Part shown: positions 6,001 to 60,800 of the stretch, piece after piece
How the letters are laid out: each line of letters begins with the position of its first letter
Numbering within the stretch: position 1 is the first letter of the stretch
Source: Plicaturopsis crispa FD-325 SS-3
Lineage: Eukaryota > Basidiomycota > Agaricomycetes > Amylocorticiales > Amylocorticiaceae
Length of the DNA: 64,000 nt
NCBI GenBank assembly: GCA_000827205.1
Contig: KN832555.1
Span: forward strand, 3,374,696-3,438,695
Reading direction: 5' to 3'
The notes under the pieces: model-generated
Told to the model about the DNA's origin: nothing
The model's input: only the letters and a program-made list of their open reading frames with translations
Database searches by the model: none
Translations under genes and position numbers: made by a program

Positions 6001-9000
6001 CGCAGCATGAACAAAGCGCGACAGGGGAGCGACATCGTCCCGGCTTCTGTGTAGAGTGCGCGACACGAGCGAAGATATCGCCGAGTACGACAGTGGCTCG
6101 ATATTGATCCACGTAGCTCTCGTTTTGTTCGAAAACATATTACGAACTCTGTCAACGACGTCGCTAAAAATGAAATGGTAAGTGACGCTTTAGGGCCATC
6201 AAGTGGCTGCTACTCACGATTGGCCATGTCGAAGGGTCATAAAAACGAGCTGTAGAAAAGACCGTTACTGTAGAGAACTTGAGAAAATCTTCGCGATGTA
6301 AGTTACCATGTGGCTTTTCGAGTTTATCAAGGTTTGAATGAGGTCCATCGTCCTGTCAGAAAGACATGAGCAAGGGGCAAACGTATTAGCAATGATTGAG
6401 ACTCAACGACTCGTCAGCTTCGTGGACATCATCCAGAAACAAGGCAAATAACCGTGTTTCCGCAAGAACCGAAAACACATTTTCCACCAAGCTTTGGAAC
6501 CTCGCGCGAAGCTCCCGGGTCGCAAGAGCTTCCTGTGGTGACGGAAATGCGACACCAAAAAGGGTCAGTATATCTCTAAGCTCCGGCGCTCCCTGGTAAA
6601 GCAGGGGGATGTTTCGCATCTGCGGTCCTAGCCGTATCTGCAGGGCATTGACAAAACGCGCTAGATCATTTTGAAAGACCATAAGCTGCCGCAAAACCGA
6701 GGACAGGCAGCTCAGCTAGATATTTTGTTAGTAAAGTGAAAATATGCAGAAGTCGCTGCCTACCAATGCTGCGAATGGGGCGGAATCGGCGTCTTGAAAT
6801 TTGGCCTGACCCCATAGGCCATGAGCTGTATTGGAGACAAAACATAAGCATCTAGGTTATTGGCTTCAAAATTCGCTCACTCCTCCATTTGGCCTGGTTC
6901 GCAAGAATTATTGAACTTTTCCCGATCCCGGGGGGACCGACCAAGATCACGGCATGTGCACGAGGCACTCGGCTTTTGGTACTCAAAGCCACCCTGCGAA
7001 GGCCATCGCCGGGAGGAAGAGAGCTAACGGTCGCAGATATCGTTGAGGTATTTACAGTGGCTGCCGTCTTGCCGGATGCCGCCACTGAAGGACTGTCCAT
7101 TGTTGGTGACATGTTGGAGGCCATAAGCCTAGGGCTGCCCTCGCCTGGAGGCAGAGCAGCATGGGAAGATGTGCTATGAGAGGATACAGATTCGCTGGGG
7201 TCCTCTCCAGTGCCGGTCTGAGTGCCTTGACTTCCTCCCGGGGACGAGATCGAGATGTATCCTTTCGCCGCCGAGAAATGCCGCGAGAAGCTGGTGGAAG
7301 TGTGGCGGATGACATTGCGGATGATCTCCATCTCTTTCTCTCGCCCGAACTGTGCACTAGATATCAATGGGACAGCTCGCACGCTCGGAGTATAGTCACT
7401 TACCAGAGCAACAGGTAGCGTGAAGTCCTAGATATACCATCAATATCGCAACGAGGTCAATCCAACGGTCATACTCACCATGTACCTGTCTTGTGAGGCC
7501 ACATCGAATATTGGAATGAGCTGCTTAGCATTAGTTGAAGCGAACACCTCTAAAGAGAGAAACCACCTGCGTACCTCGGAAGACTGGTCCGACACAGATG
7601 AGATACTTGCAAGTAGACGTCGCTGGGCTTCTATGAGGTCCGCCTTCAGCCCATACGCGCTTTGATATCGGTTGTCTGGATTTTTTGCGAGGAGCTGTGG
7701 CATGCGCGAAATATTAGGCGCTGCGTCAATAGGACAAGTATTGAAGGATACTTTACCTTGTCAACGATTAACGCCATCACTTGAGGAATATCTCGCCGAA
7801 CTTCATGAACCGGCATAGGTCGTTTTTGCACAATGCTATGGAGCAGCTCCATTGGTTCACCCTCGAACGGCATCGTGCCACGCCCAACGAGTAACGTCCA
7901 AAACAGCACGCCGATTGAATAGAGATCCGTTCGGTGGTCCTGAGACATAGTCTCGACGCTGCCGGTCTGCTCCGGGGCTAGGTAGCACAGTGCTTCCTTC
8001 ACCTTGGTCTTTTCAATCTCGTCGAACGCTTTGATGACAAGCGCAGAAGGTCCCCCGAATTGCTCCAGGGAGACCGCACGGTTGCCAAAGTGCACAAAGC
8101 GTACGAGTCCAGAGTGCGAGTTCAGATGGAACGCGTTGGCGCGTACTGCGAAGTATGTAGTTAGTTTCAACCCCAACAGCTTGTCCTTCAGTCGGATACT
8201 TACGTTCGCGGTGAATCAAACCGGATCTTATAGTAACAAAATCATTAGAGGTGCCCTTCATCGCTGTATACGGTGTGAACTTACTTATGCAATATTTCCA
8301 AACAGTGGGTCGCTTGGATAGCAAATCTAATTATGTGACTTAGCAATATTCCAAGTACTCACCAAAACGAGACATACTCCAAAAAGGTTCCCAGATCCAT
8401 GATATCAAAGGCTTCCAGCTCCTCCATCATGCTGGGCTCTTCGATTCCCGTCATGTATATGTCACCGTGCATGGAAGGTCTTGACCGTAGCACGTCGGCC
8501 AGAAGCAGGTCGTTGACTTTGGAAGGCGGGAAATGTCGACCGAGTAGGTTCAGGCCAGGGTGGAGCAACAAGAGGACCACGACGTCTCCGTTGGAGCGAG
8601 GAATAGTGAAGAAGTCGACCATTCGGAGGGTCATACTTAGGGCCTCCGAGGAAGAACTCATTTGTCCGAGACTACGCCCGACTACGTGAGGACGCTTTCC
8701 CAATAGCAAGTTGGGACAAAGACTCACATATGCGCCTCTCGTTCCAGACATAATGAGCCGTTTGAGAATGCCGGGGCAATCTTCGCAAGAACGCTACTAC
8801 CGTCTTTGAGACTGCTGCCCTCCGCGAGCAGAGTCATGCTGCCGGTGTCGTTCCATGGCGTGGCCTACGCGCCGTATTAAAAATGCAGCTCAGAAACAAA
8901 TGGCCGCAACAAGGACGCACCTTTTCGAATGTGTACCCGGGGACGGAAAGGACGTTGTCACGAAAGTACAACGTGAGTCCAGGCTGATATTTCCGTCGCA

Positions 9001-34647: not shown

Positions 34648-35021
34648 TGTGCTTGTACCGCGATAGATATATATGATGGACGTTCCCTTGTAAAGTGTCT
34701 CTCTGTATTCTCACTGTATGAGTCATTTGTTGAACGTCCGCACATCGACTATTCCTCCGTCTGCTACTAGAACAGCGTTGCACGTTGAAAGTGTACTCGG
34801 ATGTGATACAGGTCGACAAAAATTCACGATAGTTTGCGGCGCCGGACGCGACCACGTGGCTCAACGCGCTCTATTTCAACTGGAACTGAATGCTTTCGCA
34901 GCTTTACCTCTCCCCGTCACCGCGATACCAATCTCTTCTTCTCTTTATTCTTGATTATCCTCCTCATACCATCTATTCATACCATGTAAGTACACTGGGC
35001 CTGCGTCTGTGCTCTTTGCTG
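34648..35021. other. Intergenic region upstream of the AGC kinase
   Basis: No gene recognised. A GTAAGT donor at 34985 and a GCATGCAG acceptor at about 35037 could mark a 5'-UTR intron of the downstream kinase. If it is used, the chosen kinase start at 35022 would be spliced out. Confidence 0.35.
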
Positions 35022-38000
35022 ATGTTCTGCATGCAGCGTGCGCGCTACTTTCAGTCTTCGACGCGTCCGCCCACTATCACAAACCCGCTGCGAAACCTTG
35101 ATCTGCAATCTATCTCAGGATATACCTATTCAATAGGTGAGCACATATCCTATAACACCACGGCTTTTTACCTTGCTAATGAGTCTCGCTATCTAGAGAA
35201 GCCTATAAAGATGTCGCATGAATCAGTTTTCGATGTACATGGGTACACTGGTGTCTATGTCGAGCATCTCAGTCTAACGGTCCTTGTCGGTTTTAGATCT
35301 TCTACGGACCATCGTCTGGGTCGTCGACCAAGACGACACCGGTATCTGACACTACAAGCCCGCAGCTTGACATCCATATACTGGACACTGTACCATTCGC
35401 AGTACGTCTTCTTTCCGTACAGAAGAATAGCAATGTCTGACGCCTGCTAATCAGGAATCGTTCTCTGGTCTGATCAATATGGACGACTCCGATGATGACC
35501 TTGACTACCACAAGGGTAGCCCGGAGGTCACCTACGATATTGAAGTAGGTCGTCTCAATTAATGCTCATTTTTTCCTGCATCTGACCGTGCACGTCATAC
35601 AGCACTTCAAAAATATCCCCGAACTGATGCCCGAGTGGGAACATGACGACATTGACGTGGGTTCGCTACGTGCTATCGTCTGTTGTTTGTTACTTATCAG
35701 AGGGCAGGAAATCATGGTAATCTCGACGAGAACGCGGCTTCGAACCATCACGGAGGAAAACGTCAAGGAAGCGCTCAATCCCCCGGTTAGATTGCCATCA
35801 TAAAAACCTGGGTGTCTAGCTAATCATATCGTTTAGCAGTCCATCAGTGTCTCTGATTTCGAATTCCTACGCGTCTTGGGAACTGGGAACACAGCGAGGG
35901 TCACTCTTGCCCGTACTCGTGACGATCAACGTCTATACGCCGTCAAGAGTATGCGTAAATCATTGATTTATACCGAAGGCTGCGCGGAGCACGCTCGCTC
36001 TGAGCAAGCTACCTTGAAGATGGCCACGGAACTGAATGCATCATTCTTGCCGAAGCTGTACTGGAGCTTTCAAGACGATGTGCGGTTGTATCTTGCCATG
36101 GTCGGTGTATCGAAAAGATCTGTATATTCTGTGGCTGATGCATGTCTCCCAGGAATTTTATAGCGGAGGTGACTTGCTGACGCATTTGACGCGAGGCGAT
36201 GCATTCGGTCCAGAACGCGCTCGCTTCTACGCAAGTGAAATTGTCCGTGATACTCCTTCGACGATTATGTGCACTGCTAATTGAGTGGATGCGGGTGCAG
36301 GCGCAAGGCATCGCCACTCTGCACGAGGCCGGTATCGTACATCGCGACCTGAAACCCGAAAACGTCATGATCGACCGTGATGGGCATATCGTGCTGACGG
36401 ATTTTGGATGTGCGAAGATGCTCGGAGGCCCAGGCACATCCCTGCGCAGGACTGTCACTACCTGCGGCACGCGGGAATACCAGGCCCCGGAGATGCTTCT
36501 TGGGTGGTCGCACGACTTTGCCGTCGACTGCTGGGGCTTTGGATTGCTGTTGTATGTCATGCTATATGGAAGCGTGCGTCTTTATCTCATCTTATGACTT
36601 TCCGAAATGGTGTCTGACACGAAACGTAGCATCCATTCATGGTCTGTAGTGACGCGCAGGATCTGTCGGCGCTGAGAAGTAGAATCGTGCATGGTCCTAC
36701 ACCGTTCAAGTCCACAAGGGAAATCGACGTTGACGGTCAAGACCTCATCGCCAAAGTGAGTGTTTGTGAGATCCCATCGCTCAAGCTTGTACTTGGTACC
36801 TTGTTGACTGGCTGACGTGCATGCTTAGTGCCTGGAGCGCAACTCTGCCGTGCGTTTGTCCATCCAGGAAATCAAGGAGCATGGGTATTTTTCTTCTGTG
36901 TGAGATCCAACATCTCTGGCGTTGTATGCTACGGATATCTAACGAAAGCCATAATGTATCGCAGGGATTGGATTTCCCTCGTTTCCAAGGCACTGCCAGG
37001 TTCGTCCAATTGAAATATCTCCGCGTGTTTGCCGTAGCTAATGCGTTCTTGTAGCCCCGTATATCCCGGCACTGGACGAAAGTGGCGTAGACGTCTCCTA
37101 CTTCGACAAAGAAGTCACGGAAATGGCCATAGATCTGATGTTACCTGCTCTTGATAGCGAATGGCAGAGCCTGTGCGTGCAACAGTCGCCCGACTCTTTC
37201 GACGGATTCTCGTACGCCCGCCAATCCCCAGGAGAAATCAACATAAACTCTGCGTCTTCCTCGTCGACTCTACCTGTGGCCGAATTCTCTCGCTTTCTTT
37301 CTCGCACGCAGAAATCGGTAGTCCCGCCTAACAGAAGGGAAGCTCGTAGCAAGATTGTTGTTGGTGGTGAGCAGCAGGGCAACCCCGAGGAAGCTGCTGC
37401 CAGTGACGTGGTCGACCCGATCTACGACCCCAACGACTTTAAACCTCTGGCGGCCGATACACTGAAGGACCATCAAGCCTTCTGGGATAGCCTCAGCGAT
37501 GATTCTAGTCCTTCAAACGCTGTCGAAAATGTTTTCACCTGGCCGTCTCACCCCCGCAAGCTTCGGAAGAAACGAGTCTCGTTCGAACCCTATCGCATGT
37601 CTGCGGCGTCGTCTTCTCTCGGTCGTCCTCGTGCGCAAAACAAATTACGGAAGAAGACATCTGGAATCTTTACGATGGCTACTCCAGCGCCACCTGAGGA
37701 TGTATCTCTGCCCACGGGTGTCAAGCAAATCGGAGACGGCATCGGCTACAGGCACCGTACACTGGCCGTACTACCGCGGTCTCGGTTCTCTATCTCGGGC
37801 AAGACACCTAGGCAATTTCTTCATCGGCTTTCGTCCTTTGGAGCTGTCGGTCTGGGATATGGCATCCAGAAAGCAAAGCGCCACATCGGCTTCCGAAGGC
37901 GGGTTATTGTCGAACCCGACCCAGCCTGCGATATTTTGCAAATCACAAGCGAATCAAGCACTGCTCTAACGAATGCCGATCTGGACGCGGACCTTGCTAC

Positions 38001-38187
38001 ATCGTTACCAGAAGACTTCCCACCTCTTGAGCCGTCGACCAACGTGGCCTGCAAAGGCGACGCGCACGCCACCGCCGGAGGACCTCACACGAGTTTGCGA
38101 TTGGTCTCTGCGCTAGGCCTCAGCCCGACCCTTCCGGAGCTCAAATACTTCGGTAACACGCAACACTGCGAGCAGCCCTTGGCCTGA
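35022..38187 (+). CDS. AGC-family serine/threonine kinase with long C-terminal extension
   Basis: AGC protein kinase. A variable acidic N-terminal region (MDDSDDDLDYHKGSPEVTYD; PELMPEWEHDDID) precedes the kinase domain: DFEFLRVLGTGNTARVTLAR, YAVKSMRKSL, EFYSGGDLLTHL, IVHRDLKPENVMID, LTDFGCAKML and TTCGTREYQAPEMLLG (T-loop). The AGC C-tail is present: VDWISLVSKALPAPYIPALD, turn-motif-like QQSP and hydrophobic motif FDGFSY. About 320 further residues follow in one long exon (about 37054-38187), mostly disordered, with a basic KLRKKRVSFEP and a second conserved-looking patch GAVGLGYGIQKAKRHIGFRR. AGC kinases usually end soon after the hydrophobic motif, so this extension is notable. The start is uncertain: 35022 is the first in-frame ATG fitting the exon chain, and 35211 is an alternative. 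The specific subfamily is not clear. Confidence 0.82.
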
Positions 38188-38718
38188 GTCTTTTGATGTT
38201 TTGTATTTTGTATTGTCGATCTTCGCATTGTCATTCTCCCTCCGTTTTCATACAGCCAACTACACACGCTATCAATTACGCTCGTACATCATCCCGCAAA
38301 CCCTGTAACACGTTCTCCTGTACTCCATATGCACCTCTACTAGCTGTACTTTTAGCTGTACTTCAAGTTTCCACTCGCTTTGTAGCTGTTTCCCCTTACT
38401 TCTTCGTCCATGTCACCGCACTCGATTGAATACTACCTGCCTTTCTTGGTGTGTAGATGTTGACCAGGTTTTTCGGATGGCAGTGAGTCCGAAGTCGCGG
38501 CCTGCTGCAGTACAGCAAGTATTAATTCTCTTGTGACTTCAACGTTCAACGTTCAACGTTCAACGTTGTCAACAGTCACCAGCGCTAATCGGGGTGCACT
38601 GCAACGTGGACTACTCCTTATGTGCCAGCAATCACGGCTTCAAATTCGGCTGTCCAAACCTCACATTTTGTACCCATGGCCAGGATAAAGTAAGTACCTT
38701 GACGCAATCCCCGAGCAA
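38188..38718. other. Intergenic region with tandem heptamers
   Basis: Contains the AGC kinase 3' region, the TTCAACG array (38538-38565) and the uncertain 5' end of the CS-phosphoesterase gene. A Cys-rich reading at about 38596-38690 is open but matches no family I know. Confidence 0.4.
38538..38565 (+). repeat. Tandem heptamer (TTCAACG)x4
   Basis: Four perfect head-to-tail copies of TTCAACG followed by a partial TTGTCAAC. Two copies of the same unit occur at 14813-14826, also between genes. Confidence 0.9.
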
Positions 38719-47853: not shown

Positions 47854-50369
47854 TCACAAGTCAATCAGTAATGCCTCCTTCCTCTCCGTTGGTGGTGAGT
47901 TCGGTAATGATGACCCATACATGGGAAATATCTGAGGTGCCGACGTCGGCGCCACCGGGAACGAAGGCAAAGCAGGCTCTGGCGGAGCTGAAGCATACTG
48001 ACTGTGGGCAGGTGGTGCCTGCGCAACAGTGTTGGATCGTGATAGGTAGTTCGACGGAGGGGACCGGCCGTAAGCAACCGTATTGTGTCGTGCAAGTGAT
48101 GATGTCACGGCAGGGGGAAGCGAAGTGGCAGAAATGGGGGCAGAAACGGGGGCTTGTGCTGGAGGTATAGCGAATGCATGAGATGGGGTAGCGGGCGGAG
48201 GTGACTGCGGTGTGGGAGTGGGTGCAGAAGGCGCAGCGTGATAGGTCGATGAGGTTGGGGGAGGAGCGGATGGCACGTTATTATATTGCGATATCGGGAC
48301 AGGTGGTTGACTATGCGACGGGGGGTTATCCAGCACTTGTGCAGGCTGCTGGCCGTATTGTGGCTGGTGGGACGCCTCAGCAAACTGCGATTGTTGAGGG
48401 TACCAGGTCTGCCTTTCCTGTTCCGGCTGCGCGTACCGCTGCTGACCCTGGTATTGAGCGTCGGCATTCGTATATTGGATCCCTGGTTGTGTGTATGCTT
48501 GAGGAGGTGGGGCGGATGGATACGCGGACTGTGGCGGCTGAGCTTGTCGGGGGTCATGCGCATAATCGCTCGAAGGTGCTATTGGTTGCGATGTCGTAGG
48601 ACCCCACTGGCTGTATCCATTTGGCACCTCGTAGGGCTGACCATACGGTGACATAGGCTGGTGGTACGCAGTCGGAGTAGGGGTGGCCTGGGGAGATCGC
48701 CACACAGGGTGTGAAACTTGTTCAGTTAGCAGATGGTCGTAGAGCTTGACAGCTTGCGACAATTTATCGTGCATGTCAGACAGCATTTCTACAGTATGTT
48801 CAATCAGTAACTGTTGGAGAAGAGAAAGAAATGGGACGCACGTTCTTTCCTGCCGGCGTCGTCCAAGCTCATCGCCAATTTCGGGCGCAGACCATTGGCC
48901 TTATCGAATAGCTCGTTGACAGCGGGATAACGCGAGATATCTCTGCCACCCTGGGCTTGCACCTGTTCTATCGTTTGGCTAAAAGTTAAGATTGCATCGG
49001 ACTCGAGGGGTTCCAGGTCGTAGTTGGGTACTTTATTGACGGATGGCGCAGGTATCGAAGCTGGGGGGTATGATTGGGAGTAGCCGGGTCCATCTCCGTT
49101 AGCATATGGTGAGTAGTCGGAACGAGGTGCCTCGACTGCAACAGGAGCACTAGGTCTAGGAGCATTCGCTTCGCGCAGGCTCGCCTCGATAGCAGCCTTG
49201 AGATCAGGGTCTTCATCTTCTTCTACAGGCGATTTGCGGTCAGACGGATATGAGCTGCGATCCACCAGGGGAGGTTCGGATGGCATAGACTCGTATGGGA
49301 CATATCCAGGTCGCCGCGACTGCGGGTTCGCAAAACCGGCCTCCTCAAGAGACAATTGAATCGCGCGTTGAAGTTCAGCGTCAGCCAACTCTCGTGCCGT
49401 ACGATGTCTCGAGGAATGCACGGAGCCGGAGCGACGGTGCACTTTGTCAACTCTGTAGATCACAAAAGAGTCAACTGGAAGGCACTCTTGACCAAGCGAC
49501 GTGCGGCTTACGGATTCTTGTAGAGCTTAGCATAACATCCATCACAAACCCGTACTTCCTGCGTTATACCAAAGTGTGGAAGTGCCATTGCCTTCGAAGA
49601 ACACGCCTGATCAAAGACTTGACCACAGTTGCGGCAGTGGTGTTTGCGGTTCGTGAAGCTGAATGCCGTTCTACAACGAAGACAGACGTCTGAGTCAATC
49701 CATTCAGGTGCCGTCTGAGTATCGACCATAGCGGCATTTGCCACGGCCATGTCCTGGGGTGGAAATGTATATCCTGGCGTGGCAGTGAGCCGACGTCATA
49801 CAATGAAGGGAAGGCAGGACATACCTTCGGACTTCAGGGTCTTAAATACCTGTCCAACATAGCTTAGAGTTGCTTTGCCCTCGAATGCGACTGCCCAATT
49901 CTGAACAAGGCGAAGGATCTTGGTCTTGACATCGAGGTTGAGAGTCGGCACTTTGAGAATGGAGACGAGATTGTCTATGAATTCACGCGAGGCTACCTCG
50001 ACCAAGAAATGATCCCCGCCATTCTTGATGCAAACGTCCGTCAACTAGGGGATTTACGCAAGTTAGTGTCGTTCACCGGCAGACGCGAATGACGCCGTAC
50101 CGCGAGTGCCAAGAGTTGCACGTTCGGATTCTTATGGTTAAGGCGCCGTTTGAGTGCACGCATTGCTTCCTTTGCAGAGACAGATTTCGAGCGAATTTGG
50201 TCGCATATTTCGAGATTCAGCGCGATATCTTCTGCACCAGTTGGCAGGAGCTCTGACGTCGCCTTGTCTGGGGACGCAAGTCAGTACTGCGAACAGCAGA
50301 CGATACGGACAACGCACCAACGGCATCGTCCAGCTGAGACGTTCCCCATAGCCACGTAGTGATCGACAT
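47854..50369 (-). CDS. VPS27: ESCRT-0 subunit VPS27 (VHS-FYVE-UIM)
   Basis: Endosomal ubiquitin-cargo receptor that starts the ESCRT pathway. The start at 50369 gives [20 protein letters not shown], the VHS domain ([20 protein letters not shown], then NCGHF-like [17 protein letters not shown]). The FYVE zinc finger that binds PI3P is at about 49510-49720: [38 protein letters not shown]. Two ubiquitin-interacting motifs follow: [14 protein letters not shown] and [15 protein letters not shown]. The long C-terminal half is Pro/Gln/Tyr-rich with several PSAP motifs of the kind that recruit ESCRT-I Vps23, and it ends in a clathrin-box-like LLIDL at the extreme C-terminus. Every hallmark of Vps27 is present and in the usual order. 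Confidence 0.94.
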
Positions 50370-50879
50370 TATAAAAGAAAGCAAAGAAGAGGGAAGAGTC
50401 AAGGTGTTGAGCGCGCAGGCTGAGGAACAGTTACAGCAGCGGCTGCGCAGAGTGCGGGCATCGACCTTGCGCCACAATGGCTGACTAAGCATTGAGCTCG
50501 GTTCTGCGCAAGCCCAAGTCAGCGCGGGTCAAGGCTTGTCCTCGACCACCACCCCCGTAAAACCCGTACCTTTCGTCAACGCTCTCTATCGCGTTTGACG
50601 CGTACCCTGGGTAGCTCGCGTCATCAGCAGTACTTCCGCGCTTTCGCCGCACCGCTGCTGTTCTTTTTGGCCGCTTGCCAACTTCAATTTCTCTGCGGGC
50701 GACATTTCATCAACATCGAAAAAAAGCTATCGAAAACTCCTTTCGAACGCTCAAAACTGCTCCGTCGTCGCTTCTATACCTCTAAAGGACACTCTACACC
50801 CGTTTTCCCGGCTTTTTTCTCGGTTTCTTTCGGTTTTTGATCGTGTCGTGTCGTCGCCCGTGTCCGACGTCTCGCAGCC
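50370..50879. other. Divergent promoter region of VPS27 and RPB1
   Basis: About 510 bases. A strongly pyrimidine-rich stretch (about 50800-50840) with CTTTTTTC-like runs precedes the RPB1 start, typical of constitutive fungal promoters. No gene seen. Confidence 0.45.
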
Positions 50880-53800
50880 ATGCTTGGTCACCAGTTCGCT
50901 TTTTCTGCGGCTCCTGTCCGCAAGGTCAAGGAGGTGCAGTTCGGTATCCTGTCGCCAGAGGAAATCGTGAGTACCAATTGTTTTAACCCTGGGCGCCTGC
51001 TGCCAAGCGGCCAACTAACGAGGCGATGGCGTCGCGGCAATACAGAAAGCATATTCGGTCGCAAAGATTGAACACCCCGAGGTCATGGACGAGTCCACAC
51101 ACAAGCCAAAACTCGGTGGCTTGATGGATCCTCGCATGGGTACAATTGACCGCAACTTCAAGTGCCAGACTTGCGGTGAGGGTATGTCCGAGTGTCCAGG
51201 GCACTTTGGACATATCGAACTCGCAAGACCGGTGTTTCATCCTGGTACGGTCTCCGACTCACTGTATTTGTGCTGAGCGCCGACATCTCGCTGCAGGTTT
51301 CATCATAAAAGTGAAGAAAATATTGGAGTGTATATGCGTAAATTGTGGAAAACTCAAAGCCGACATCGTGAGTCACGTTCCCTTTCCCTACTCGTTTCGC
51401 ACCCCACCATCCCAATTTTCTGGGGGCTCTCTCCACATCCCATGGAGAACCCCAAACCCGTACCACGTTCGACCCTTGACAATCGAGGGCGTTCAGCCAC
51501 CCGTGGCGGGGTCATGCGCGCGTTTTCGGTCGCTTGATCGCCGCGCTGACCACTGCAACCGCTCGGTGCTGGTTGGACACGAGGTTACGTGGTGAAATGG
51601 GGGGCTGAACGAGGAGTGCGAAAAAACACCATATCGAAACCGTGTTACCCGCGAGGGCCTCGGTCGAATGGACGGCCACCGCCCTCCCTGTAACGCAGAC
51701 AGAGGGTGTGTGTATGGCTTGCACTTGTGACTCGATGTCGATTGCCCCCTAATGTTCATGTCGTGTCCCCATGTTTGGATCCTGGCTGTTGTGGTATTTT
51801 ATAGACGTACACGCTGACTCTTTCATTCCTATATCCTTGATAACCTCCCTGCCTTGGCTTGTGCGATGTAAGTCGGACCCTAATTTTGCGGATAAAATTC
51901 GCCATGTCCGCGACCCGAAAGCGCGTATGGCTGTCGTATGGGCCCACTGCAAGACCAAGATGGTTTGCGAGCCGGACGATATCAAGGAGGAGGGCGACGG
52001 CGGCGACGAGGATGCGAAGAAGGGACATGGCGGCTGCGGCCACATCCAGCCCCTCATCAGAAAGGAGGGGCTCAAGCTCTTCGTGCAATACAAGAAGCCG
52101 AAAGATGATGACGAGGTATGTGAGTTTCAATTGTATCGAAACTAGCCTTACAATTCTTGCAGGAGGTGAAGTCGCTACAGCCTGACAGGAGGCTGTTTAC
52201 GGCCTCTGAGGTCTACACTGCGTTTAAGAAGATGCTTGACTCTGATCTACACCTCCTCGGTCTTTCGGACGAATACGCGCGGCCGGAGTGGATGATCCTC
52301 ACAGTAATGCCTGTGCCACCGCCACCTGTTCGGCCCAGTATTGCTGTGGACGGCGGCGCAATGAGAAGTGAGGACGATCTTACATACAAACTCGGCGATA
52401 TCATCAAGGCATCTGTAAATGTCCGACGATGCGAGCAGGAAGGCGCGCCGGCGCATGTTATCACTGAGTTTGAGCAGCTTCTGCAGGTTGGTCCATTGCT
52501 CTCTTCTACTAAAACTTTAACTCAGTGTCGTTTCCAGTTCCACGTTGCTACTTACATGGACAACGATATTGCCGGCATTCCTCAGGCACTTCAGAAGTCT
52601 GGTCGCCCAGTCAAAGCGATCCGGGCTCGGCTCAAGGGCAAGGAAGGTCGTCTCCGTGGCAATCTCATGGGCAAACGTGTCGATTTCTCTGCGCGGACGG
52701 TCATTACTGGTGATCCAAATTTAGAGCTCGATGAAGTCGGTGTCCCTCGCAGTATTGCTATGAATCTGACATTTCCGGAACGAGGTGTGTAATCTTCTAC
52801 TCTCAGTCGCAATGTTGGCTTAACCTGTATCAGTCACGCCGTACAATATCGCCTATCTGCAGGAGCTCGTGCGGAATGGGCCCACTGCATACCCTGGAGC
52901 TCGGTATGTAGTGCGAGACACCGGCGAGCGTATCGATTTGCGGTACAACAAGCGTGCGGATGCGTTTCTACAGTACGGCTGGGTTGTCGAGCGCCATTTG
53001 AAAGACGGAGAGTGGGTATCTTCTATTTCTACTTGCATGTGCGGAGACTAATGCCTGAATCCCTTTCAGTTTTGTCCTGTTCAATCGTCAGCCCAGTCTG
53101 CACAAAATGAGTATGATGAGTCATCGTGTCAAACTCATGCCGTATTCCAGTAAGTCTACCCATCACATAGACTCGTTCGATGTGCTCATTATATCTACGA
53201 ACAGCTTTCCGTCTAAATCTTTCCGTGTAAGCTGGCTGAGTGCACAACGCTGACACCGTTATTGATATATGGTTACAGAACGCCCCCCTACAATGCCGAC
53301 TTCGACGGCGACGAAATGAACATGCAGTAAGTATATGATCAAAGGGACACATGACACCTACTTACCCTACGGTCAGTATACCTCAGAGCGAAGAGACGCG
53401 TGCCGAATTGAGTCAGATTGCATGGGTTCCCCGCCAGGTACGTGGACCGTTATTTCTAAGACTTGCTCTCGTGCTGATCATATCTGCTCCCAGATTATCT
53501 CTCCGCAAGCCAATAAACCTGTCATGGGCATCGTGCAGGATACCCTCTGTGGTATTCGAAAGTTCACCCTGCGAGACACGTTCTTGGACTGGAACCAGGT
53601 GCAGAACATTTTGCTCTGGGTTCCGGACTGGGACGGTGCTGTCCCTGTTCCTGCTATCGTCAAACCGAAACCGCTCTGGACAGGGAAACAGATCCTCAGC
53701 TTATGCATACCTCGAGGTATCAACATCCATCGCTCGCCTGATCCCAAATCGTCCAATCCTGTCTTTGACGATGGTATGATGATTGAGAACGGCGAGGTCA

Positions 53801-56800
53801 TCTTCGGTATTGTCGAGAAGAAGACCGTCGGCGCGTCACAAGGCGGTCTGGTCCATGTCGTCTTCCGAGAGAAGGGACCCGACGCCACACGCCAACTTTT
53901 TACTGGTCTCCAAATGGTTGTCAACTACTGGCTGTTCCACAACGGTTTCAGTATCGGCATCGGCGACACTATCGCTGACCATGGCACGATGGAGTACATC
54001 ACCAACCACATTGCTGAGCGGAAGGCGACCGTTTCCGAAATCATCGAGGACGCAACACACGACAGGTTAAAAGCCGCTCCCGGAATGACTATTCGTGAAT
54101 CGTTCGAAAGCCGTGTCGAGCGAGAGCTCAATTTGGCTCGTGATACGTCTGGTCAGTACGCCCAGAAGAACTTGAAGGAGGACAACAACGTCAAACAGAT
54201 GGTGGTGGCCGGCTCGAAGGGTACTTTCATCAACATTTCGCAGATGTCGGTGTGTGTGGGGCAGCAGAGTGTGGAGGGTCGACGTATTCCATTCGGGTTC
54301 CGCCATCGGACGCTTCCCCATTTCACGAAGGATGACTTCAGTCCAGAGGCTCGTGGATTCGTCGAGAATTCGTATCTGCGTGGGTTGACGCCTCAGGAAT
54401 TCTTCTTCCACGCCATGGCCGGACGAGAGGGTCTCATCGACACTGCTATCAAGACTGCCGAGACCGGTTATATCCAGCGTCGGCTGGTCAAGGCGTTGGA
54501 AGACGTCATGGTATGCTACGACGGCACCGTTCGAAACTCTCTCGGTGACTTGATCCAATTCGTATACGGTGAAGACGGCATGGACGGCGCATTCATCGAG
54601 CGGCAAAACATCGACACCTTCGCTCTCAACAACGCACAGTTCGAGCACAATTATCGCGTTGATGTCACTGACCCCTCTGGTGGCTTCCTCCCTGGTGTAC
54701 TCCAGGTCGGGCTTGACGACAGCTCTCTTCAACTACAGGCGAAGCTCGACCAAGAGTACGCGCAGCTTGTGGAAGACCGAAGACTTCTACGGACGTTCAT
54801 ATTCCCTCGTACAGACCCCAGCTCTCCTCACTATCTGCCAGTCAACTTGCAGCGTATAGTTCAGAACGCTATGCAAATTTTCCACATTGACCGTCGAAAG
54901 CCGAGCGACCTGGAGCCCGCGTATATCGTGGATGCTGTCCGGGACCTTCTGGACCGATTGATCGTAGTTCGTGGCGACGATCCGCTTAGCCGAGAGGCGC
55001 AGCAGAATGCGACGTTGACATTCCAGATGCACCTTCGTGCTACGTTCGCGTCGCGTCGCGTTCTCGAGAAGTTCCACCTCAACCGCGAAGCCTTCGAGTG
55101 GGTTCTCGGAGAGGTTGAGGCCAAGTTCAACCAATCTGTCGTCAACCCTGGCGAGATGTGCGGCACTCTAGCAGCACAGTCCATTGGAGAACCCGCTACA
55201 CAGATGACTCTCAACACCTTCCACTACGCCGGAGTGTCCAGTAAAAACGTCACTCTTGGTGTGCCACGATTAAAGGAGATCATCAACGTCGCGACTAACA
55301 TCAAGACGCCTTCACTCTCGGTCTACTTGGAGCCCGAAATCGCGCGGGATCGATTCTTAGCCAAGAACGTTCAGCAGGAATTGGCGTACACCTCCCTCAG
55401 GACTGTGACCGCAGGTGTCGAGATCTGGTATGATCCTGACCCCACTTCGACTATCATCGAGGAGGACGCAGTCTTTGTACACTCATTCTTCGCCATCCCT
55501 GACGAAGAGATTGAATCCAAACTCCATCTTCAATCCCCTTGGCTTCTCCGCTTGGAGCTGGACCGCGCGAAAATGATTGACCGCAAACTGACGACCCCGT
55601 ACGTCGCCGGGCGCATCGCTGAGAGCTTCAAGACGGACCTTTTCGTCATCTGGAGCGAAGACAACTCGGACAAGCTTATCATCCGCTGTCGTGTATTGGG
55701 TGGCGCAGACAAAGATGAAGATGGTATGGGCACCATTGAAGAGGATATATTCCTGCGACAGCTGGAGAACACGATGCTCAATTCTGTGAGCTTGCGTGGA
55801 GTGAAGGACGTCAACCGTGTCTTCCTCATGGAACATGACAAGGTGGTCATCACGAAAGAGGGCAGCATCGAGGCACGAGAGGAGAAGGAGTGGGTGCTCG
55901 AGACCGACGGAGTCAACCTCAAGACCGTAATGTGCATTGACGGAGTGGACTTCAAGCGCACCTACTCGAACAGCTGCGTTGAGATCTTCAACGTGCTTGG
56001 GATCGAGGCCGCCAGGAATGCCGTTATGAAGGAGCTTCGAGGTGTCATTGAGTTCGACGGTTCCTACGTCAACTACCGCCATCTGGCATTGCTTTGCGAC
56101 CTTATGACGCACCGCGGGACGCTCATGGCTATCACGCGGCATGGTATCAACCGCACTGATACGGGAGCGCTCATGAGGTGTTCCTTCGAGGAGACGGTGG
56201 AGATTCTCATGGAGGCCGCAGCCGTCGGTGAGAAAGACGATTGCCATGGCGTAGCGGAGAATGTGATGTTTGGGCAGATGGCACCGATGGGGACAGGCTC
56301 ATTCGACGTCGCGCTGGACATAGACATGCTCAAGGACGCCATCGTTGACCACCGTCTTCCGGTGCAGAACATGCTCGCGGCTCAAGCAGACGGCGGTATG
56401 ACTCCGGGCCAAGTTGCTATGACACCGTATGATAGCAACTCTCCAGGGTGGAACGAGGCGAGCTTCAAGGGGGAATCAGCGGCATTCTCTCCTCTTGCTA
56501 TGACCGGTGGCGAAGAATCAGCGAACTTCCCCTACTTAGGTTTCGGCCAGAGTCCAGTCGGTGCAGGAGGCATGTCTCCGGCGGGACCCGGATACAGTCC
56601 AAGCTCGCCAAATGCTTACTCTCCGACGTCCCCTGGATATGTACCGCAGTCGCCTTTCAGTGGTGCTACATCGCCGTTCGGTACGTCACCATACGCGACA
56701 TCGCCCTTCTACGATCGTGGCCGTGGTGGTGCGACGTCGCCGACTTATTCACCAACGTCACCCGCCCTGAACCTCACATCTCCTGGGTATTCTCCTACGA

Positions 56801-57542
56801 GCCCTCGCTATTCCCCTACTTCCCCGTCGTTCTCACCGACATCCCCCCGGTATAGTCCCCAATCTCCTTCATTCAGTCCGACATCTCCTCGCTATTCACC
56901 CACGAGTCCATCGTTCAGCCCCGCGTCTCCACGATGTAAGTGCCCCTCTATACGAGCGTTATCATGTCGCTCATCGTTCTATTCTTCGTGTTAGATTCTC
57001 CAAGCAAGTATTTTGCTACTGATTTCCTGTTCCGTTTACTGACCTTTTTTGTTTCCTAATTCGCCATTACAGCTTGTGAGTTTGGTCTCCTCCCTTGTCC
57101 GCTGTTGAATTCTCGGTCTAATATGTGAAACAGCTCCTGCACAGATGTCACCCTCATCACCCAAATATTCTCCTACATCACCTACCTCGCCGTCGTCCCC
57201 AAAATATTGTAATTCCATCTCCATTGTCATGCTGCTCATAAGTAATTGGCTAACGCGCGCATTTAGCCCCTACCTCGCCCACGTACTCACCGGCTTGTGC
57301 GTGTTTGCATAATCTCTATCTTCTCAGCCTACTGACATTTGCACGCTTACTCGAACAGCTCCTGCATACTGTGAGTTTCATCACCCACTGATGCAATTCT
57401 TAGCTAACGTTATCGTCTTTCAGCTCCCGCGTCTCCTGCATACAGCCCAACGTCTCCGCAGTGGTCTCCCTCGAGTCCGGCGCAACAGCCAAACGGTACT
57501 AACAAGGGACATTCTTATTCGACATCACCCTCCTGGGAATGA
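50880..57542 (+). CDS. RPB1: RNA polymerase II largest subunit RPB1
   Basis: Catalytic subunit of RNA polymerase II. The start at 50880 gives [20 protein letters not shown]. The clamp zinc sites follow ([33 protein letters not shown]; later HCKTKMVCE and GHGGCGH), then [20 protein letters not shown], the active-site metal-binding loop [12 protein letters not shown], and funnel and trigger-loop regions including [21 protein letters not shown]. One large exon covers about 53494-56935. The C-terminal domain (from about 56570) has degenerate then canonical YSPTSPS heptads. Its 3' end is split into exons 56995-57003, 57073-57075, 57134-57208, 57267-57296, 57359-57370 and 57424-57542, ending SYSTSPSWE. 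The intron at 51368-51872 is 505 nt, against about 50-70 nt elsewhere. The gene is complete. Confidence 0.97.
51368..51872 (+). other. Unusually long RPB1 intron (505 nt)
   Basis: Donor GTGAGT after GKLKADI and acceptor GATGTAAG before [12 protein letters not shown]. Both flanking protein segments are conserved RPB1, so the intron ends are well fixed. The intron is about ten times the length of its neighbours and contains several stops in all frames. Confidence 0.75.
56571..57536 (+). repeat. RPB1 CTD heptad repeats, spanning six introns
   Basis: The heptads run from degenerate copies ([23 protein letters not shown]) to near-consensus [21 protein letters not shown] units up to 56935. They continue through small exons as [28 protein letters not shown] and YSPTSPQ. 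Arg or Phe often replaces Ser or Tyr at positions 7 and 1. All six introns are in phase 1. Confidence 0.85.
57004..57072 (+). other. Probable GC-AG intron next to a 3-nt exon in RPB1
   Basis: After TAT TCT CCA A comes GCAAGT, the classic form of a GC donor; no GT donor near here keeps the frame. The acceptor is TTACAG at 57072, followed by CTT (57073-57075) and a GTGAGT donor. A|CTT|CT then encodes Thr-Ser and restores a YSPTSP heptad. Skipping the CTT would give YSPTP. Confidence 0.6.
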
Positions 57543-57883
57543 GTGTTTTGCACTTTGTCTTTCTATCTCATCGGCCACAGTTGCCAGTATCTAGCTCTAG
57601 CCTTAGCTTCCATACACATCATGTAGAATAATGCATTTCTTACTATTCAGGCTGGTTGCACTGTGTATTGAATCGTGCGTGTCGACGTGAGTTGTGCCGT
57701 ACTGACTGTTGTGGGCAAGGGGTGATCCACGTCCCGCTATTGAGGCAGCCTCTGGCAGGTGGATTACTTGCAGAGCCAACACATAGATAGCCTCTGATTA
57801 AACAAGACGGCGCGTAGAACGCAGAACAGTAGAGTTATCCTGGGTAGTCCACATAAATATCCAACAAAAATCCCAGATACTAG
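57543..57883. other. Convergent 3' intergenic region
   Basis: Lies between the RPB1 and ABC transporter stop codons. No gene seen. Confidence 0.4.
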
Positions 57884-60800
57884 CTAGATCGATTTCTCAG
57901 ATGCCATGGCGTATAGCTTCTCCTTATCACCGCTCTCGTCGACAAGCGCTCGGAGGAAGCCCTTTTCGTTTTTCAACAGTTCGGCAGGGCTATTGTACTC
58001 GACCTGCAACAATGATTGTCAGGTCGACAGTGGTGAGACCGAAGACGATGCGACTTACCACACGTCCCGCATCAAGGACCATCTGGAGTCAAAACGCGGG
58101 GGATTATCAGTCCACACTCTATTCATTGTGACAGTGCCAGGATGCTTACAATCTTGTCCGCGTCCATAATCGTCTGCAGACGATGTGCGACGGTGAGCAG
58201 CGTGACATCGCCCTTCAGCTCGTTTCGAAGCGAAGACTGAATGACGGCGTCCGTTTCATAATCTGTTGTCAAGATGTTAGCCAGCTAACGTAGATCCTCA
58301 ATGGAGAAAGATACCTATGGCAGAAGTCGCTACAACCACGACATGTCAGCATCACCGTCGAGGATACATGCCAGGGGGACATACCTTCATCTAATATAAG
58401 CAATTTACTTCCTCGCACGATGGCTCTCGCCAGCGCAAGGATTTGCCGCTGGCCGACCGAAAGGTTTCCGCCCCCGCTCGCAATGGTGCTGTCCAGCGTT
58501 ATTTTGTGCTCGCCATCATCATTCTGCAGCGAGTAGAGACCGGCGGCACGCAGCGCATCGTTCAGCGTGGCATCGTCATATTGCGAGAACGGATCGAGGT
58601 TCTGACGGAGGCTGCCGCTGGAGGAGTTCAGGCTGGCGGAGGAAGTGAGCTACATGGTGGGACCTACGGCACGGAGTCATACACTTACCNNNNNNNNNNN
58701 NNNNNNNNNNNNNNNNNNNNNNNNNNNNNNNNNNNNNNNNNNNNNNNNNNNNNNNNNNNNNNNNNNNNNNNNNNNNNNNNNNNNNNNNNNNNNNNNNNNN
58801 NNNNNNNNNNNNNNNNNNNNNNNNNNNNNNNNNNNNNNNNNNNNNNNNNNNNNNNNNNNNNNNNNNNNNNNNNNNNNNNNNNNNNNNNNNNNNNNNNNNN
58901 NNNNNNNNNNNNNNNNNNNNNNNNNNNNNNNNNNNNNNNNNNNNNNNNNNNNNNNNNNNNNNNNNNNNNNNNNNNNNNNNNNNNNNNNNNNNNNNNNNNN
59001 NNNNNNNNNNNNNNNNNNNNNNNNNNNNNNNNNNNNNNNNNNNNNNNNNNNNNNNNNNNNNNNNNNNNNNNNNNNNNNNNNNNNNNNNNNNNNNNNNNNN
59101 NNNNNNNNNNNNNNNNNNNNNNNNNNNNNNNNNNNNNNNNNNNNNNNNNNNNNNNNNNNNNNNNNNNNNNNNNNNNTTTCGAAGCGAAGACTGAATGACG
59201 GCGTCCGTTTCATAATCTGTTGTCAAGATGTTAGCCAGCTAACGTAGATCCTCAATGGAGAAAGATACCTATGGCAGAAGTCGCTACAACCACGACATGT
59301 CAGCATCACCGTCGAGGATACATGCCAGGGGGACATACCTTCATCTAATATAAGCAATTTACTTCCTCGCACGATGGCTCTCGCCAGCGCAAGGATTTGC
59401 CGCTGGCCGACCGAAAGGTTTCCGCCCCCGCTCGCAATGGTGCTGTCCAGCGTTATTTTGTGCTCGCCATCATCATTCTGCAGCGAGTAGAGACCGGCGG
59501 CACGCAGCGCATCGTTCAGCGTGGCATCGTCATATTGCGAGAACGGATCGAGGTTCTGACGGAGGCTGCCGCTGAGGAGTTCAGGCTGCGGAGGAAGTGA
59601 GCTACATGTGGGACCTACGGCACGAGTCATACACTTACCACTTGGGGGATGATTGTAATGTTTGATCGAAGGGTATCTAAATTGACCGAGCTGGTGGGAA
59701 TACCATCGTAATAAACGGTGCCTTCCGTGAAAATGCACCGCAGGAGCGACAAAGTCAAAGAGCTCTGCGAGACGAAAGGTTCAGAATGCATCGATAAGAG
59801 GGTTGAACGAACATACCTTTCCTGATCCCGTACGTCCAACTAAGAGATGTTGTTAGCATCTGCTACTCCTACCGGTGGAAAGAGAACGCACCGACGCCGA
59901 CACGTTCACCTGATTTGATGTGGAACGAAATATCATGCAAAACTGTAGGCCCGTCGGGGGAATATTTGGCGGACAGGTTTTCTACGCAGATGTCGCCGCT
60001 AGCCGGCCAGTACGCAGGCGGGACTCCGCCCTCGCTAGGTTCTTGCTCTTGTTCGATGGTCAAATATCCGTGAATACGCTCGACGCTATTTCGCCCGGTC
60101 AGCCATCGCTTGGTACTCACAACATAAATCGGTATCGTTGCACACCTATTGGCTATGGAAGGAATCAGTACCGCAGTATATGGCTATCGCGAGGAGATGA
60201 ACGCACCTTGAGTTTCAAACAAGTTGAACAGTCTAACCCACCACATGATCATTGCCCCAAACGCAGCTGCAGTGTTGACAATAAATATAGTATGCAATCA
60301 GACAACAGCCTAAATACTACTGACCAGCCATATTCAATGAAAACCCGGTATCCCGGGCATGCGTGTTGTCCTTGAAGTAAACAAAGTAGGCAGCAAGAAA
60401 AGCAGCGAAAATGCCACTAAGGGCATCGATTCGGACAGTGAACCAGCTACAAGCAACCATGTAAGTCGGTGCACGCGAGACAGCCGGTCTAATTCTACTC
60501 GACATACCGATTTAGATCGTACACGACTCTGGAAGCACTATTGTATCGGTCAATACGTTTTTTGGACTCCTTCTCGAAGGCCACCTGTGCACCATAAGCA
60601 CGGATGGAGGCTGTGAGAGCAGATATATCAGAAGACATTGAGGGATTGCCACGGGGTACGCACTCAGCCCTGCAATAGCGCCGCCGAAATGTCCTAGAAC
60701 AGGAGCTTTGGCATTACTTTGCTCTCTCTTGACAGATAGTTGCGCTTTCATATAGACATGGCCAAGTAGGGACCCTGCTACCATGCCAAAGATGCCAAGG

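Follow-up and report, generated by a model that had tools for sequence, protein, structure and literature searches.

The RPB1 gene and its introns

The window, by which we mean the whole stretch of 64,000 nucleotides of Plicaturopsis crispa FD-325 SS-3 DNA that was analysed, contains a gene for RPB1 of RNA polymerase II (Pol II) with a single stop codon at its end (Table 1). A Pfam domain scan of positions 53500-56934 detected Rpb1 domains 3 to 7 (E = 2.6e-35 or better), domains 1 and 2 lying upstream of the scanned part. When the same positions were compared with solved RPB1 chains, the best PDB match was 3h0g_A, an rpb1 chain (1551 bits), and the CTD repeats match the heptad family PF05001 with 26.9 bits against a cut-off of 20.3. 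The gene is the sole close match in the 33.2-Mb genome. Seven other matches, at no more than 56% identity and in two places on contig C1, presumably represent subunits of Pol I and Pol III.

The introns of the gene are distributed unevenly: 11 fall within its first 2.6 kb and six within its last 0.6 kb, and the 3,442 nt between these parts are intron-free. Loss of introns through cDNA, which is biased toward the 3′ end, predicts the opposite of a cluster at that end. Over the 11 introns upstream the phases run 0,1,0,0,0,1,2,1,2,2,0; the 3,442-nt exon follows, and each of the six introns after it is in phase 1. The third intron of the gene (positions 51368-51872) is 505 nt long, about nine times the median of the introns sampled from the genome (56 nt), and has an AAG acceptor; it may contain a further small exon or some other element. 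Just downstream of the gene, positions 58690-59176 are a run of 487 N, which is either a gap or sequence that was withheld.

Mini-exons in the distal CTD

The RPB1 CTD contains 16 units that match the pattern [YF]SPxSPx, only two of which are exact YSPTSPS. In the proximal CTD (about 56790-56935), Y- and F-heptads alternate and form a two-heptad repeat. In the part encoded by mini-exons, unlike the proximal CTD, heptad position 7 is occupied by A, K, T, and Q. Apart from the two lysine-7 repeats, which are both encoded by the 75-nt exon, there is one further lysine, in the non-heptad tail.

Table 1. Positions of the RPB1 gene and of the exons and introns at its 3′ end (a slash marks the place of the intron in a split codon)
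Feature	Position in window	Strand	Description
RPB1 gene	50880..57542	+	18 exons, 17 introns, 1,749 aa
Intron-free 3,442-nt exon	53494..56935	+	Core end, linker, proximal CTD
CTD intron 1	56936..56994	+	GT-AG, phase 1, Tyr split T/AT, heptad position Y1
9-nt exon ATTCTCCAA	56995..57003	+	Made 13 nt by the unconstrained gene-finder
CTD intron 2	57004..57072	+	GC-AG, phase 1, Thr split A/CT, position T4; rival GT at 57008 gives a frameshift
3-nt exon CTT	57073..57075	+	Supported by gene-finder and splice scores
CTD intron 3	57076..57133	+	Phase 1, Ser split T/CN, position S5
75-nt exon	57134..57208	+	Holds both lysine-7 repeats, MSPSSPK and the 6-residue SPSSPK
CTD intron 4	57209..57266	+	Phase 1, Ser split T/CN, position S2; lowest score of the six
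30-nt exon	57267..57296	+	Supported by gene-finder and splice scores
CTD intron 5	57297..57358	+	Phase 1, Ser split T/CN, position S5
12-nt exon CTCCTGCATACT	57359..57370	+	Supported by gene-finder, splice scores and heptad model
CTD intron 6	57371..57423	+	Phase 1, Ser split T/CN, position S2
Last exon	57424..57542	+	Final repeats, SPSWE end, stop

An earlier note on this DNA had described the last six introns as all interrupting codons in phase 1, with exons of 9, 3, 75, 30, and 12 nt between them. We read the same structure from the sequence, and a gene-finder agrees on five of the six introns. The split codons, which the note had called mostly serine, are indeed Ser T/CN at four of the six introns, the other two being Tyr T/AT and Thr A/CT. 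The note had also placed the introns repeatedly at one point of the heptad; this does not hold, because the split codons lie at Y1, T4, S5, S2, S5, and S2. With all five exons included, the full tail is regular in heptads except for one 8-residue unit (QMSPSSPK) and one 6-residue unit (SPSSPK).

Support for the mini-exon model

A simple gene-finder was trained on sequence from contig C1 (20 segments of 10 kb each) and on the window minus RPB1, which gave 78 predicted gene models with 534 introns (median, 56 nt; 11 of them GC-AG). It was then run on the forward strand of positions 50001-58600 with loosened site cut-offs. Although blind to RPB1, it recovered the exons of 3, 75, 30, and 12 nt, and its boundaries were exact for five of the six CTD introns. 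For CTD intron 2 it used the same acceptor with a GT donor at 57008, which gives a 13-nt exon, a frameshift and a stop at 57502. The 9-nt exon of the earlier model requires a GC donor at 57004, and hence a GC-AG intron, which was not mentioned there. The total score of intron 2 is 5.2 in the GC version versus 5.7 in the GT version. At position −1 the GC donor carries A; the 11 GC donors of the training set have G there in ten cases, T in one and A in none. Two other gene-finder calls were dismissed. An intron at 54809-54859 would delete part of the alignment to solved RPB1, and a start of RPB1 at 51960 was replaced by one placed by hand in the final model; the latter call is probably a product of the 260-nt intron limit of the gene-finder against the 505-nt intron.

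When the CTD frame was required, the combination of the 9-nt and 3-nt exons (9+3) was the best of 19 possible chains (12.0), ahead of the 3-nt exon alone (11.4) and of two 3-nt exons (3+3; 9.9); on splice scores without codons the corresponding values are 13.0, 11.6, and 10.8. The chain with only the 3-nt exon thus trails by 0.6 log units with codons and by 1.4 on splice scores alone. Because this margin is small, splice signals by themselves cannot settle the 9-nt exon, and it is the heptads that do. Together the two exons give YSPTS, which with the next PA makes one full heptad between FSPASPR and QMSPSSPK. Under a CTD heptad model, 9+3 is ahead of the 3-nt exon alone by 13.5 log units and ahead of four alternatives by 6.8-15.0, and inclusion of the 30-nt and 12-nt exons (30+12) is ahead of three alternatives by 13.1-34.0. 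Heptad scores favour longer tails, and since the units tested for 30+12 lie in the model itself, the latter comparison is partly circular. Scored as chains, 30+12 inclusion reaches 15.6, and the three skipping chains reach 6.7, 8.6, and 7.9.

We also shuffled the dinucleotides of the 198-nt stretch that contains the 9-nt and 3-nt exons. None of the 1,500 shuffles produced a chain that continues the heptads, and none produced a mini-exon chain with an equal or better splice score. The enumeration in this test yielded 11 chains for the real sequence, compared with 19 in the scoring run, as weak donors were dropped, two extra exons rather than three were allowed and shorter exons were permitted. 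The exon sizes and the predicted splice signals fit the description of microexons, and, as far as the DNA alone shows, the mini-exon structure is real.

Among the training introns, the splice scores of CTD introns 1 to 6 lie at percentiles 66, 86, 65, 34, 96, and 99. For the most part these values appear to fit constitutive inclusion, with no clearly weak site of the kind that would suggest regulation.

Rarity of the shared phase and of the tiny exons

Phases 0, 1, and 2 are represented by 222, 149, and 163 of the 534 sampled introns. Against this background, the probability of six successive phase-1 introns at a site fixed beforehand is about 0.0005, and that of six introns in any one shared phase is 0.006. 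Since equal phases make the exon lengths between them multiples of three, these two properties are one fact and not two. Of the 33 sampled genes whose predicted models have six or more introns, three contain a run of at least six introns in one phase, and in all three the run is of seven or more. When phases were shuffled, a run of six or more appeared somewhere among the 78 genes in 62% of the shuffles. A longer run than that of RPB1 is predicted within the window itself, where a model on the forward strand at 34889-38429, which looks protein-kinase-like by eye, has nine consecutive phase-0 introns.

Internal exons of 12 nt or less make up 16 of the 460 in the sample models, some of which are artefacts (two of the 460 have length 0). 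RPB1 has three such exons (9, 3, and 12 nt), more than any of the 78 sampled genes, in which the maximum is two, and tiny exons are therefore ordinary only in a relative sense. Five consecutive internal exons that together span 129 nt or less were found in just one of 33 genes, in a model containing a 0-nt exon.

Predicted effects of exon skipping and intron retention

The prediction in the earlier note that skipping any of the five exons would leave the frame and the SPSWE end intact was borne out in all 32 include/skip combinations. The number of heptads would change as predicted as well, computed values falling from 16 to 11 over contiguous skips, with 11 of the 16 heptads left when all five exons are skipped. 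Removal of whole heptads, that is, of a multiple of 21 nt, is achieved by no single skip, by 2 of the 15 contiguous runs (75+30 and 30+12) and by 6 of the 31 non-empty subsets of exons. Given that the normal tail already has an 8-residue and a 6-residue unit, irregular spacing might be tolerated.

Retention of any one CTD intron would cost the protein its SPSWE end, through an early stop in the case of introns 1 to 3 and through a shifted tail in the case of introns 4 to 6. Use of the GT donor at 57008 would likewise remove SPSWE and the downstream heptads, so that 10 of the 16 heptads remain. The shared phase 1 thus makes skipping errors neutral for the frame; by itself it is not evidence of regulation.

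Origin of the CTD introns

The earlier note had offered two origins for the CTD introns, copying along with the repeat and insertion at a repeated proto-splice site. Insertion at canonical sites (AG/G-like) is not supported as the cause by the exon flanks, which are T/C in four cases, T/A in one, A/C in one and AG/G in none, together with the phases predicted from the exon-flank preference of the genome, whose shares for the CTD are nearly equal (0.32/0.33/0.35). At position −1, five of the six CTD introns have T, compared with 83 of the 534 sampled donors; T-first splits account for 18 of the 149 phase-1 introns in the sample.

Copying has weak and mixed support. Introns 3 and 5, separated by 105 nt of coding sequence, share a heptad position, as do introns 4 and 6, separated by 42 nt. 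The mean similarity of the six introns was matched by 21 of 2,000 random sets of sample introns; for the two pairs in register the count was 18 of 2,000 (P of about 0.01). With random introns matched in length, the counts were 16 and 23 of 2,000. When interiors only were compared, 3 of 2,000 sets were as alike as the six and 154 of 2,000 as alike as the in-register pairs. Shuffles of the introns' own interiors, however, were as alike in 184 of 2,000 cases for the six and in 146 of 2,000 for the in-register pairs (P of 0.07-0.09). Because shuffled interiors are equally alike so often, shared base composition explains much of the similarity.

Individual comparisons give a similar picture of mixed signals. 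Against random sample introns, 3 of the 15 pairs had P < 0.05 (introns 3 and 6, P = 0.005; 4 and 6, P = 0.035; 1 and 4, P = 0.043). The most similar pair, introns 3 and 6, lies out of register, and the in-register pair of introns 3 and 5 had P = 0.075. Introns 1 and 2 occupy heptad positions unlike those of any other CTD intron, and of two neighbouring heptads with TCTCCTGCATAC in common, one is interrupted at S5 and the other at S2. Moreover, among 202 windows of six successive introns from 33 other genes, eight, from five genes, were as alike as the CTD set (three when interiors were compared), as was one of the five six-intron windows among the upstream introns of RPB1. A DNA search of the own genome with positions 56380-57545 (E up to 0.001) for near-identical copies of the introner type returned only the query region itself; diverged copies could escape such a search. 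On what is a weak test, it seems more likely that the CTD introns were gained or kept separately than that they were copied with the repeats.

Interpretation of the mini-exon string

We consider it probable that the distal CTD is encoded by a constitutively spliced string of mini-exons, all of them normally present in the transcript and held in place by heptad spacing. Because the CTD introns are short (53-69 nt) and each has its own donor, branch point and acceptor, they could be recognised by intron definition and spliced out one at a time, which would let even a 3-nt exon stay in. Selection on heptad spacing would fix the exon lengths: the tail is near-regular in heptads when all five exons are present, and whole heptads are lost by no single skip. 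That some mini-exons have been misread is improbable. In such a case the 9-nt exon would be absent, either because the 3-nt exon stands alone or because the stretch is one 198-nt intron, or else the GT donor at 57008 would produce a shifted tail ending at 57502. The unconstrained gene-finder path does take that donor, the GT version has the higher total score, the 3-nt-only chain is barely behind 9+3, and the GC donor is unusual in its A at −1. Against this stand the loss of the downstream heptads and of SPSWE from a shifted tail, the clear preference of the heptad model for 9+3 over the 3-nt exon only, and the shuffles, none of which continued the heptads.

Regulated splicing of the mini-exons, which would yield CTD isoforms that differ in length or content, for instance with and without the lysine-7 repeats of the 75-nt exon, is very unlikely in our judgment. 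It would draw on the frame neutrality of every combination of skips, on the range of heptad numbers that these would generate and on the precedent of a switch-like microexon in Trichoderma virens (PMC11121469). On the other side, hardly any contiguous skip removes whole heptads, the splice signals are mostly middling to strong, and reports of spliced CTD variants were not found in the titles and abstract openings of the literature matches listed. A particular form of this idea, which we regard as a long shot, is regulated omission of the 75-nt exon, either by itself or, keeping whole heptads, together with the 30-nt exon; the cell would then make Pol II that has or lacks the only lysine-7 repeats of the CTD, and Pol II would thereby feed back on its own splicing. 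Tandem duplication that copied introns along with the CTD repeats is an unlikely source of the string, though one with something in its favour: the heptad positions shared by introns 3/5 and 4/6, the three pairs with P < 0.05 and the excess of similarity over random introns. These points are offset by the own-interior shuffles, by windows elsewhere and upstream in RPB1 that are as alike, by a best pair that is out of register and by introns 1 and 2 at positions of their own. The gene structure is striking, and the DNA gives no sign that the cell varies the tail with it.

The CTD tail couples transcription to splicing, and the number of its repeats is usually regarded as fixed within a species. 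Because any set of the five tail exons can be dropped with no frameshift, this gene is a natural place to test for CTD variants. If splicing is constitutive, as we favour, the locus is a hard case for gene-finders, given its 3-nt exon and a GC-AG intron whose neighbouring GT donor would shift the frame, and a useful one for how fungi splice tiny exons.

Comparison with microexons and CTDs of other organisms

Tiny exons are described in another basidiomycete, Phanerochaete chrysosporium, whose P450 genes have microexons encoding 2-10 amino acids, introns of 45-55 bp and a smallest exon of 6 bp (PMC1184071). These resemble the RPB1 mini-exons in their size of a few codons and in the shortness of the introns around them; they are, however, spread over P450 families (PMC1184071), whereas those of RPB1 form a string in a repeat tail. 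In Fusarium, CYP621A has a single-nucleotide exon, deduced from the frame and from an intron of doubled length, and the same source mentions exons of 2-5 bp for Arabidopsis, Drosophila, and humans (PMC12940212). Both CYP621A and RPB1 have exons at the lower limit of size, but the Fusarium exon is backed by sequencing reads and 24 aligned sequences (PMC12940212) and those of RPB1 by sequence logic in one genome.

Of the cases found, the closest precedent for the idea of a CTD switch is Xlr2 of T. virens, in which inclusion of a microexon alters a transcription protein and two isoforms were observed (PMC11121469); the RPB1 gene described here, by comparison, is known from DNA alone. Among the literature matches listed, no title or abstract opening concerned spliced CTD variants or CTD mini-exons, in a search whose range left out most subscription journals.

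In the animal CTD, lysine-7 occurs in distal non-consensus repeats and is acetylated by p300, an enzyme for which the source paper reports no clear homologue in fungi. Apart from Plasmodium, the plants, algae, and other non-animals examined there have at most two lysine repeats each (PMC4362643). The gene described here likewise has lysine-7 in distal non-consensus repeats, two of them, both in one 75-nt exon.

RPB1-like sequences in other collections

Scans of viral and genome contigs for relatives gave no fungal RPB1 among the matches listed. In the genome-contig scan, the best 80 of 313 loci bear archaeal names except for two with bacterial ones (L028 and L029). Two or more heptads in one frame were present at 5 of 113 loci, of which two (L001 and L108) are the RPB1 gene itself and three (L025-L027) are viral contigs. 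The latter, from IMG/VR, encode RPB1-like proteins with 6, 5, and 9 uninterrupted CTD-type heptads in L025, L026 (about 6430-6660), and L027 (about 6520-6760), respectively, and they may belong either to large DNA viruses or to misfiled eukaryotes.
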